Source: Prochlorococcus sp. AG-409-J16
Lineage (GTDB): Bacteria; Cyanobacteriota; Cyanobacteriia; PCC-6307; Cyanobiaceae
Direction: 5' to 3'
Assembly: GCA_003215655.1 (NCBI GenBank)
Contig: QCKB01000001.1
Span: 496,001-560,000 of the forward strand
DNA length: 64,000 nt
Position numbers and translations under genes: made by a program. Shown piece after piece: positions 58,486 through 61,798 of the stretch; the first letter of the stretch is position 1, and each line of letters starts with the position of its first letter. The notes below the pieces were generated by a model. It saw only the letters and a list, made by a program, of their open reading frames with translations. It was not told the DNA's origin and did not search any database.

Positions 58486-58812
58486 TCATTCTTGACACTG
58501 ATCCAATTCACTCTTCATCCTCTTAAGAGTCATATTCATTTGTTCAAACATTTGTTCAGGAGTCATTCCAAATTGACCTAGCTGAGTCCGCAACTGTTCT
58601 ACTGTCATCTTTGCTTGAAAATCCTCCGACAGCTCAAAACGCTTCATAAATACCTGATAACGCTCCATTAAAGCTTCCATTGTGGAGATAAACATCTTCT
58701 TACCTTCACGATCGAACTTCCCATAATCTGAACCAAGCTTCATCAACTCCTGATAGTCATAAAAAAGCCTTTTGGCCTCCTCTTGAACAATGTCGGATTC
58801 AAAGAAGGCCAC
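58486..58812 (-). CDS. DUF1825 protein
   Basis: A 108-residue, mostly helical cyanobacterial DUF1825 protein (MAFFESDIVQEEAKRLFYDY at the start, then QELMKLGSDYGKFDREGKK, and a Met-rich end QFGMTPEQMFEQMNMTLKRM). No membrane segment. Function unknown. It is the first gene of the tyrS-pyrF run. The 250-base gap upstream (58813-59062) is AT-rich and holds no recognised gene. Confidence 0.88.
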   Translation of the reverse strand: MAFFESDIVQEEAKRLFYDYQELMKLGSDYGKFDREGKKMFISTMEALMERYQVFMKRFELSEDFQAKMTVEQLRTQLGQFGMTPEQMFEQMNMTLKRMKSELDQCQE

Positions 58813-59062: not shown

Positions 59063-59686
59063 ATGGCCAGAGGCCACTGGTTGGACCCTTTGGCACGACA
59101 GATACTGCGAGCCACAGGGAATCTACCTTCTAAAACAAGCCACCCTTCCAATCAAGCCAACCATCTTGATCCGATAGAGATTGAGTTAAAAGCTCTTAAA
59201 GAAGAACAAAACATACTCAAACAGGAGTCGGCCTATTTCATTGACGTCAATAGAGCAAAGCCTTCTGATTGGCTTACGCTACCTGGATGCACAGAGGAGA
59301 TGGCCCAACTACTCATTCGCTTACAGAGAGCAGGTGTTCAACTCAGTGGAGAAGAAGATCTCTTTCAATTACTAGAACTCCCACAGAACATCGCAAATCA
59401 ATGGAAGCCTTTTTTACTTTTCCACTGGTATGGAAGTGCACCTCCTTTACCCAACATCCAATCAATTGATTTAAATTCTGCTCCTATTTCAAAAGTCAAA
59501 GACTTCCTTAATTGGCCCGAAGATCGTATTCAAAGATTATCCAGAGAGCGACAAAAAAATCAATTTACAAATCTGGCGGATTTTCAAGAACGCCTAATGC
59601 TTCCAGCATCAGAAATTGAAAAATTAATAGGAGCGGTCCGCTTCGGCAACAAACGTCCAGGACCAATGCTCCCACCAAAGTGCTAA
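59063..59686 (+). CDS. Helix-hairpin-helix protein
   Basis: A 207-residue protein with two ComEA-like helix-hairpin-helix regions: FIDVNRAKPSDWLTLPGCTE near residues 59-78 and SIDLNSAPISKVKDFLNWPE near 134-153. Such modules bind DNA without sequence preference. The N-terminus (about 1-30) is basic and may be membrane-independent; no signal peptide is seen. It ends 3 bases before the start of a GIY-YIG-like nuclease gene, so the two form a pair that could be a split HhH plus GIY-YIG nuclease. Confidence 0.8.
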   Translation: MARGHWLDPLARQILRATGNLPSKTSHPSNQANHLDPIEIELKALKEEQNILKQESAYFIDVNRAKPSDWLTLPGCTEEMAQLLIRLQRAGVQLSGEEDLFQLLELPQNIANQWKPFLLFHWYGSAPPLPNIQSIDLNSAPISKVKDFLNWPEDRIQRLSRERQKNQFTNLADFQERLMLPASEIEKLIGAVRFGNKRPGPMLPPKC

Positions 59687-59689
59687 TCC

Positions 59690-60289
59690 ATGGGGAACTA
59701 CTCAACTGGTCAAGGTGAACTATTTATCAAAAATACTGCTACCGAAATTCTAAAAGTTCAGGAAAACATAAGACTTAGCAAAGATCTCTTAAAGACTTGG
59801 CAGAAGCGTTTACACAGTCACCAGGCACAATTATTTTCAAACCTTGAAACCGCTCCCAGACAGGGCTCTTTCTTTAATCCAGAGAAGATAGATCCTATCA
59901 ATCATTTCAATCCAATGAAATTAACTCCCTTACCTCTTAGTTTTTGGCGCTGGCCAAGCAGCCCTCACAAAGGTCCTGCTGTTTATTTAGTTATGGACCG
60001 GCCAACCTACCTAGATAAACCGATTTTGCTTTATATAGGTGAAACGATTAATGCAGATAAGCGCTGGAAAGGTGAGCATGACTGTAAGGAATATCTTTCT
60101 GCATATAACGAAGCACTTACAGCCGTCAATTTAAGCAGCCAACTAAGTATTCGCTTCTGGACGGATGTTCCAAAGGCAACAAAAGCCCGAAGGAAACTAG
60201 AGCAACAACTCATCCAACTTTGGTTGCCACCATTTAATAAAGAGACCAGATCGCGTTGGGCAACTCCATTCACTGCAGATATCACCTAA
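59690..60289 (+). CDS. GIY-YIG-like nuclease domain protein
   Basis: A 199-residue protein with a GIY-YIG-type core in its C-terminal half. The two signature strands are GPAVYLVMD (95-103, Tyr99) and LLYIGETINADKRW (113-126, Tyr115, Arg125), followed by a Glu at 171 in KLEQQLIQLWLPPFNKET and Asn183. That is the full catalytic pattern of UvrC, Cho and Slx1-type nucleases. The N-terminal third is basic and unassigned. It follows the HhH gene by 3 bases; together they resemble a split structure-specific nuclease. The target is unknown. Confidence 0.82.
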   Translation: MGNYSTGQGELFIKNTATEILKVQENIRLSKDLLKTWQKRLHSHQAQLFSNLETAPRQGSFFNPEKIDPINHFNPMKLTPLPLSFWRWPSSPHKGPAVYLVMDRPTYLDKPILLYIGETINADKRWKGEHDCKEYLSAYNEALTAVNLSSQLSIRFWTDVPKATKARRKLEQQLIQLWLPPFNKETRSRWATPFTADIT

Positions 60290-60325: not shown

Positions 60326-61798
60326 ATGGAGATTTCATTTGCAACAGAAAGTCTGGAAGATTGGAATGGCTCCTTGCTTGTCATAGGCCTAGTAGAAGAA
60401 AATCTAGAAAAACAATTAGTTCCTCTTAAAAAGCGCTTTGGAGAACTTCTCCTGAGAAGTATCGAGAAAAAAAAGTTCACTGGCAAATCAAAAGAAATTG
60501 CCAGTTACCAGCTTATAGATGACTCTTTAGAGAAGCTTGTACTAATAGGTTTAGGAAAACCAGAAAATCTGGTTTTAAACGAACTACGAAATGCCTCTTC
60601 CATTGGCGCGAAAGAAAGCCTAGGCACCAATGGAAAGATGGGAATTTATTTCCCATGGACTCTTTTCAATAAAGACTCAGCATCTAAAGCTGTTGCAGAA
60701 GCCGCCCTACTTTCATTCTTCAAAGACGTTCGTTTTTTAAGTTCACCAGAAGTTAAAAGCATCCCTTCAGGAATTGACCTGATTGGGCTTCCTAATTCAA
60801 ATAAAGACTTCCTAAAGTCAATAATCCCCGTATGTAATGGTGTAGGACTCGCAAGAGAACTTGTGGGGGCTCCAGCGAATATGCTCACACCTGCAGAATT
60901 AGCGAATACCGCTGCCTTACTTGCTAGGGAGAAAAATTGCCAACTAAAAATTCTTGAGAAGAAAGACTGCCTAAAAGAAGGAATGGGAGCATATTTGGCT
61001 GTTTGCCAGGGTTCTGATCTTGATCCAAAGTTTATTCATTTGACCTACAAACCTGATGGTCAAATTCTTAGGAAGCTTGTCCTTATAGGAAAAGGGCTGA
61101 CATTCGATTCAGGAGGCTACAACCTAAAAGTTGGTGCCTCACAAATAGAAATGATGAAATTCGATATGGGTGGTAGCGCTGCTGTATTAGGGACTGCTAA
61201 AGCAATTATTGAGCTAAAGCCCAAAGAAGTTGAAGTTCATTTCATTATTGCTGCTTGTGAAAACATGGTCAATGGATCAGCCGTTCACCCTGGAGACATA
61301 ATTGAGGCCTCTAACGGTAAAACGATCGAAATAAATAATACTGATGCCGAAGGTCGACTAACCCTTGCAGATGCTTTGGTTTATGCCTCCAAACTTCAAC
61401 CTGATGCAATCGTTGACCTTGCAACCCTCACCGGAGCATGTGTTGTAGCCCTAGGAGACGAAATAGCTGGACTATGGACAGGCAATGATTCCTTGGCCAA
61501 AGGTCTAATCAGTGCTGCAAATGACGCAGGAGAAGGACTATGGAGAATGCCTCTTTATCAACCTTATAAAGATGGATTGAAATCTTTACTTGCCGACCTA
61601 AAGAATACTGGCCCAAGGCAAGGCGGCTCTATAACAGCGGCTCTTTTCCTAAAGGAATTCGTCGATGAATCAATCCCTTGGGCACATATCGACATTGCTG
61701 GGCCTGTATGGTCTGATAAAGGTCGCGGAATTAATCCTGCTGGAGCGACTGGATATGGAGTTAGGACTTTAATAAATTGGATATGTAATCAGGAATGA
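60326..61798 (+). CDS. pepA: Cytosol (leucyl) aminopeptidase
   Basis: PepA removes N-terminal amino acids from peptides using two metal ions. The 490-residue protein has the active-site signature NTDAEGRL with metal ligands, plus KGLTFDSGGYNLK and MKFDMGGSAAVLG. The last domain carries DLATLTGACVVALG. The start is 36 bases after the GIY-YIG gene. It is followed by a 93-base stretch with no supported gene before the convergent small protein. Confidence 0.96.
   Translation: MEISFATESLEDWNGSLLVIGLVEENLEKQLVPLKKRFGELLLRSIEKKKFTGKSKEIASYQLIDDSLEKLVLIGLGKPENLVLNELRNASSIGAKESLGTNGKMGIYFPWTLFNKDSASKAVAEAALLSFFKDVRFLSSPEVKSIPSGIDLIGLPNSNKDFLKSIIPVCNGVGLARELVGAPANMLTPAELANTAALLAREKNCQLKILEKKDCLKEGMGAYLAVCQGSDLDPKFIHLTYKPDGQILRKLVLIGKGLTFDSGGYNLKVGASQIEMMKFDMGGSAAVLGTAKAIIELKPKEVEVHFIIAACENMVNGSAVHPGDIIEASNGKTIEINNTDAEGRLTLADALVYASKLQPDAIVDLATLTGACVVALGDEIAGLWTGNDSLAKGLISAANDAGEGLWRMPLYQPYKDGLKSLLADLKNTGPRQGGSITAALFLKEFVDESIPWAHIDIAGPVWSDKGRGINPAGATGYGVRTLINWICNQE

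Follow-up and report, generated by a model that had tools for sequence, protein, structure and literature searches.

A GIY-YIG protein of the Cyanobiaceae with two putative sliding-clamp motifs and a dispensable helix-hairpin-helix partner

A gene pair conserved at the family level

The window, the whole stretch of 64,000 nucleotides that was analysed, belongs to a Prochlorococcus genome of 1.84 Mb in 18 contigs. Towards its end, a gene for a helix-hairpin-helix (HhH) protein is directly followed by a gene for a GIY-YIG protein, and the locus contains the following features.

58486..58812, minus strand: DUF1825 gene, assigned by Pfam and synteny; upstream neighbour, on the opposite strand to the pair
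59063..59686, plus strand: upstream HhH partner gene, 207 aa, with two degenerate ComEA-type HhH domains (HHH_3/HHH_6)
59075..59098, plus strand: HWLDPLAR motif, N-terminal in the HhH protein and near-invariant in Cyanobiaceae alignments
59690..60289, plus strand: GIY-YIG nuclease gene, 199 aa, PF01541 above cut-off; the core of the finding
59711..59725, plus strand: putative clamp motif 1, QGELF, residues 8-12, in the disordered N-terminus of the model
59780..59848, plus strand: helix between the motifs, L..WQ.R...HQ, residues 31-53; AlphaFold2 pLDDT 93-97 for residues 31-50
59861..59875, plus strand: putative clamp motif 2, QGSFF, residues 58-62, in a low-confidence loop of the model
59978..60247, plus strand: GIY-YIG catalytic core, residues 97-186, with Y99, Y115, R125, H130, E171 and N183
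60326..61798, plus strand: pepA (M17 leucyl aminopeptidase), assigned by Pfam and by synteny in most Cyanobiaceae loci; downstream neighbour

The two open reading frames of the pair, previously proposed on the plus strand with a 3-base gap (59686/59690), were confirmed, and since both genes are widespread and conserved, they are not chance reading frames. The pepA and DUF1825 genes are not thought to be part of the system.

The family was surveyed in 300 Cyanobiaceae genomes, 197 of them near-complete. The GIY-YIG gene, which is single copy and syntenic in this family, was found in 195 of the 197 near-complete genomes; the two genomes without it (G240 and G254) have a completeness of 92 and 90%. 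The HhH gene is present in 142 of the 197 and missing from 55. The pair was scored at 120 non-identical loci whose sequence extended far enough upstream. Wherever both genes occurred (72 loci), they were adjacent and on the same strand (72/72), with a median gap of 3 bp, and in many of these loci the HhH stop overlaps the GIY-YIG start. At the other 48 of the 120 loci the HhH gene was not found, with the GIY-YIG gene intact. At some of the HhH-less loci a remnant of the gene survives, either a piece from its C-terminal or N-terminal end or a copy riddled with stops, and in one genus a different gene fills the HhH place. The two genes are thus a family-level gene pair in which the HhH gene is dispensable and the GIY-YIG gene is the conserved part. 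The DUF1825 and pepA neighbours are conserved as well, and therefore shared synteny alone does not make the pair special.

Adjacency of the pair in relatives, which the sequence-only reading had made a check of its proposal, holds inside the Cyanobiaceae but not beyond, where the two genes are not neighbours. GIY-YIG relatives are present in 169 of 255 sampled non-Cyanobiaceae cyanobacteria, and 60 loci from outside the family revealed no GIY-YIG neighbour common to several families. Only 2 of these 60 loci have an HhH gene at most 0.8 kb from the GIY-YIG gene; both are from one Synechococcus elongatus-like family, in which the genes lie 0.5-0.7 kb apart with an insert that differs between the two genomes. 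Single outside loci showed other arrangements: a GIY-YIG gene that overlaps recD2 by 4 bases (L117:1018-3875), a photolyase gene that ends 4 bases before the GIY-YIG start (L104), and recA near the GIY-YIG gene (L118).

The HhH protein has lost its hairpin glycines

When the HhH reading frame was compared with Pfam, HHH_3 aligned with residues 60-118 at an E value of 2.2e-4, which is below its cut-off, and HHH_6 matched residues 153-191. Its cyanobacterial relatives have two HHH_3 stretches each, with E values of 5e-13 and 4.5e-16, and the predicted model matched ComEA and PsbU with Foldseek probabilities of 1.00 and 0.95. The ComEA-type fold of the two hairpin domains, as first read from the sequence, therefore stands, but the canonical G-h-G does not: three of the four hairpins lack it in all sequences of two alignments (23 and 25 sequences), and the fourth retains it in only 1/23 and 2/25 sequences. 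Because these glycines are lost, it is doubtful that the protein binds DNA in the ordinary HhH manner. A role in DNA uptake, which had also been suggested, is not indicated, as the protein shares just the general ComEA/PsbU fold.

The downstream gene encodes a GIY-YIG protein with an intact active site

The product of the downstream gene matched PF01541 with 25.9 bits (cut-off 22.6), and the same profile was matched by 21 of 23 diverse homologues at an E value of 0.1 or better. Tyr99, Tyr115, Arg125, Glu171 and Asn183 do not vary among 23 sequences, the most distant of them at 32% identity, nor in an alignment of 61 Cyanobiaceae GIY-YIG sequences. The AlphaFold2 model, built on 61 sequences, has a mean pLDDT of 83.6 and a confident core, in which the secondary structure elements follow the order strand-strand-helix-strand-helix. 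Low-confidence regions are the N-terminus (about residues 1-30) and residues 54-68, flanking the helix of residues 31-53.

Foldseek alone did not give a significant match of this model in the PDB, and a sequence search for relatives with a solved structure returned none for either the HhH or the GIY-YIG protein. VIA-align was run as a second look on the Foldseek candidates and gave Z scores of 7.7 for T4 EndoII, 6.6 for the UvrC N-domain, 6.2 for R.Eco29kI, 5.1 for PD-T4-3 and 3.9 for Hpy188I. One structure outside the GIY-YIG group also scored (2lwf, a plant glutaredoxin N-terminal domain, Z 5.6), and clearly unrelated structures remained at 2.9 or lower. In the 199-residue chain only the GIY-YIG domain was matched, and UVR, RNase H-like or HhH regions were not. 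The GIY-YIG identity claimed by the sequence-only reading was thus borne out by the profile match, the structural matches and the conservation of all five catalytic residues, and the product of 59690-60289 is a member of the GIY-YIG superfamily, and not UvrC, NucS or MutL. The earlier suggestion of an uncharacterised DNA-processing role is supported as well.

Two putative clamp-binding motifs in the N-terminal tail

Over its first 72 residues, the GIY-YIG protein is constrained only in the helix and in two pentapeptides, and the rest is free to vary. W37 and Q45 of the helix are invariant across 203 sequences. Among 203 distinct homologues, the pattern Q..[LIM][FL] occurs at site 1 in 199 and at site 2 in 178, and at 60% non-redundancy 56 of 65 homologues have both motifs together. 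The column entropies at site 1 are 0.05 bits for Q8, 0.13 for L11 and 0.45 for F12, compared to about 2.5-3.8 bits for the free positions in and around this motif, and at site 2 they are 0.45, 0.71 and 0.58 bits for residues 58, 61 and 62; most neighbouring tail columns exceed 3. At position 3 of the motif S, D, E, N and T predominate, and G is frequent at position 2. The nuclease motif takes the form QG[ED]LF/QGSLF in the Cyanobiaceae, and several members from outside the family begin with MEQLSLF or MSKQLSLF, which is the published consensus for binding of the bacterial sliding clamp DnaN, QL(S/D)LF (PMC9690074). NucS, a clamp-activated mismatch nuclease, has a similar terminal motif, [E/K][L/Y][T/R]LF (PMC8228993).

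As background we used 417 reading frames from 464 kb of the window genome. None of them contains two copies of Q.[SDENT]L[FL] within the first 75 residues, a strict form that also leaves out the GIY-YIG protein of the window itself, because its second site reads QGSFF. Judged by its letters, this site is a weaker match to the clamp consensus. With Q..LF within the first 20 residues as the pattern, the GIY-YIG protein was the only one among the 417. A scan of the whole genome for DNA patterns encoding QGxLF was too noisy to be informative (24+41 matches versus 16+35 in the reversed control). Taken together, there is good evidence that the N-terminal stretch is a clamp-docking tail, with binding itself predicted from the motifs. 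Residues Q45-F49 were considered as a third clamp motif and rejected, since they sit in the well-predicted helix and fit just 103 of the 203 sequences. A search of open-access literature found no paper on this GIY-YIG family, nor one that links a GIY-YIG protein to the clamp in cyanobacteria.

Distribution of MutL, MutS and the nuclease

In the MED4 strain mutS is present and mutL and mutH are absent, and the existence of a repair system was left open (PMC2921402). No cyanobacterium has mutH, and mutL is missing in several strains of P. marinus (PMC5101192). In our sample, MutL (PF01119) was found in 0 of 36 Cyanobiaceae and in 245 of 255 other cyanobacteria, and PF08676 gave the same picture in 22 genomes. 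All 36 MutL-less Cyanobiaceae have the GIY-YIG nuclease. MutS with its mismatch-recognition domain (domain I) is present in 34 of 34 near-complete genomes of this family, and those sequences that were read have an unbroken GDF[FY]E motif.

The location of the clamp motif in MutS differs between the two groups. Nine out of ten MutS tails read from MutL-positive cyanobacteria have a C-terminal clamp motif (QLDIF, QLGLF, QLDMF, QLSIF and QLSLIP), the tenth tail being QMTIDD. In Cyanobiaceae MutS the C-terminal motif is lost (L378-L387, L301-L307, L324-L337), and most sequences carry QG[SND]LF, the same form as the nuclease motif, in an extension that adds roughly 100 residues to the N-terminus. 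Exceptions are QLSL- or QLAL-like N-termini in L302, L303 and L327, QGSFF in L337 and QKNLF in L328. In the window genome, mutS is frameshifted at a run of 11 G (L304:2162-2172, contig C4), and only one G/C run of at least 9 was counted in 400 kb of this genome; the frameshift may be an assembly error or a switchable mutator locus. A second genome (G003, L305) has a split mutS as well, in this case without a G run.

Outside the Cyanobiaceae, 163 of the 245 MutL-positive genomes have the GIY-YIG gene and 82 miss it. The nuclease therefore did not arise as a MutL replacement, and cyanobacteria with MutL can do without it. Ten genomes outside the family are MutL-negative, and six of these have the GIY-YIG gene and four do not; with completeness of at least 90% and contamination of at most 5% required, four remain, three with the gene and one (G429, L399) without. 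The latter, a near-complete genome in a single contig of 3.8 Mb, lacks both MutL and the nuclease, and the C-terminal clamp motif is missing from its MutS too; this looks like the disappearance of the entire pathway, but in one genome only. Two other genomes in which MutL was not found (G319 and G336) still have the MutS tail motif, and here a gap in the assembly may explain why MutL is missing.

A probable clamp-recruited nuclease and a possible MutL-less mismatch repair

We regard it as probable that the GIY-YIG protein is a clamp-recruited nuclease for replication-coupled repair, in which both the binding to the clamp and the role in repair are inferred. The protein would be a vertically inherited cyanobacterial nuclease, tethered to DnaN by its flexible N-terminus with the two QxxLF motifs, and is predicted to nick or cut the DNA that the replication fork has left behind. 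In the Cyanobiaceae (Prochlorococcus, marine Synechococcus and Cyanobium) it would be the strongest candidate for the enzyme that nicks the strand in mismatch repair: MutS, with the same clamp motif, would detect the mismatch, and the clamp would then bring the nuclease there. The HhH protein would be a dispensable accessory, presumably co-expressed with the nuclease. Tentatively, Prochlorococcus and marine Synechococcus may thus have a mismatch repair of a third kind, in which MutS and a stand-alone GIY-YIG nuclease work without MutL or MutH through a shared DnaN-docking pentapeptide. The least certain step, and a rather doubtful one, is that the nuclease has replaced MutL as the nicking enzyme. 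We treat the role in mismatch repair only as a hypothesis, because the loss of MutL in the family counts as a single event, the nuclease occurs in MutL-positive genomes, the MutL-negative genomes outside the family are mixed, and mutS of the window genome is frameshifted. With what amounts to one evolutionary loss, the co-occurrence is statistically weak.

It is quite possible, if somewhat short of an even chance, that the protein is a clamp-tethered nuclease for general repair of flaps, branches or lesions that has nothing to do with MutS, and that the loss of MutL is coincidental. Its presence in most MutL-positive cyanobacteria fits this, as may the repair genes among its scattered neighbours elsewhere (recD2 in L117, photolyase in L104, recA in L118), whereas its near-universal retention in exactly the MutL-less family, where MutS has the same relocated pentapeptide, argues for the connection with MutS. 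The clamp itself could also be the wrong partner. The motif is short, its position 2 is often G and clamp binding is only predicted, so that the QxxLF repeats might bind a protein other than DnaN or stabilise the nuclease, with the match to the clamp consensus being fortuitous. We consider this unlikely, given the disordered context, the two copies, the S, D or E at position 3, and the same motif shape in the MutS tails of the same genomes.

The sequence-only reading had likened the pair to a UvrC whose modules are divided between two genes. A structure-specific nuclease of this kind, for which both chains are obligatory, would agree with the shared strand and with start and stop codons that overlap or lie a few bases apart in nearly all 72 loci. 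It is very unlikely nonetheless, as the HhH gene is often lost (absent from 55/197 genomes and not found at 48/120 loci) and the GIY-YIG gene stays, the two are not adjacent in other cyanobacteria, and the hairpins are without GhG. Many solo GIY-YIG proteins are homing endonucleases or restriction enzymes, the structural matches include R.Eco29kI and T4 EndoII, and GIY-YIG relatives occur on cyanobacterial plasmids. That the protein is such a selfish or defence nuclease is nevertheless hardly credible for a single-copy, syntenic gene of 195/197 near-complete Cyanobiaceae that has no methyltransferase as a neighbour. An origin from a phage or a defence system was rejected, with no phage match and no significant match in PADLOC or PHROGs.

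Comparison with known systems

The N-terminal GIY-YIG domain of UvrC has the same fold (Z 6.6) and the same Tyr/Tyr/Arg/Glu/Asn set. In UvrC, the UVR, RNase H-like and C-terminal HhH regions are on the same chain, whereas the window protein has a tail with clamp motifs instead. EndoMS/NucS of Actinobacteria and Archaea is our working analogy, as a non-MutL mismatch nuclease that is activated by the clamp via a short terminal x-L-x-L-F (PMC8228993). Its RecB-like fold, however, is unrelated to GIY-YIG, and organisms with NucS lack MutS, whereas the Cyanobiaceae keep it. MSH1 of plant organelles likewise links MutS-type recognition to a GIY-YIG nuclease (PMC12292046), but on one chain, where the Cyanobiaceae have separate genes and, as we propose, a common clamp tether. 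With MutL and MutH the protein would share strand nicking in MutS-dependent repair, although the folds are unrelated.

Few photosynthetic cells are as abundant as Prochlorococcus and Synechococcus, and their mutation rate underlies estimates of population size and evolution. With a candidate nuclease and motif residues now named, the question of their mismatch repair without MutL or MutH, left open in print (PMC2921402), becomes directly testable. If the hypothesis is true, this would be a second clamp-dependent alternative to MutL, alongside NucS, and a free-standing counterpart of the MutS-GIY-YIG fusion of plant organelles.

The HhH protein resembles ComEA and PsbU in its HhH fold, and differs from them in the loss of the GhG hairpin glycines. 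Its relatives also exist outside the Cyanobiaceae. There, 12 of 15 loci (L123-L137) have a gene for a TM2-SHOCT membrane protein next to the HhH gene, and these two genes constitute a conserved pair of their own. At one of the outside loci (L135) a DUF1825-like gene adjoins the HhH gene, as in the window.
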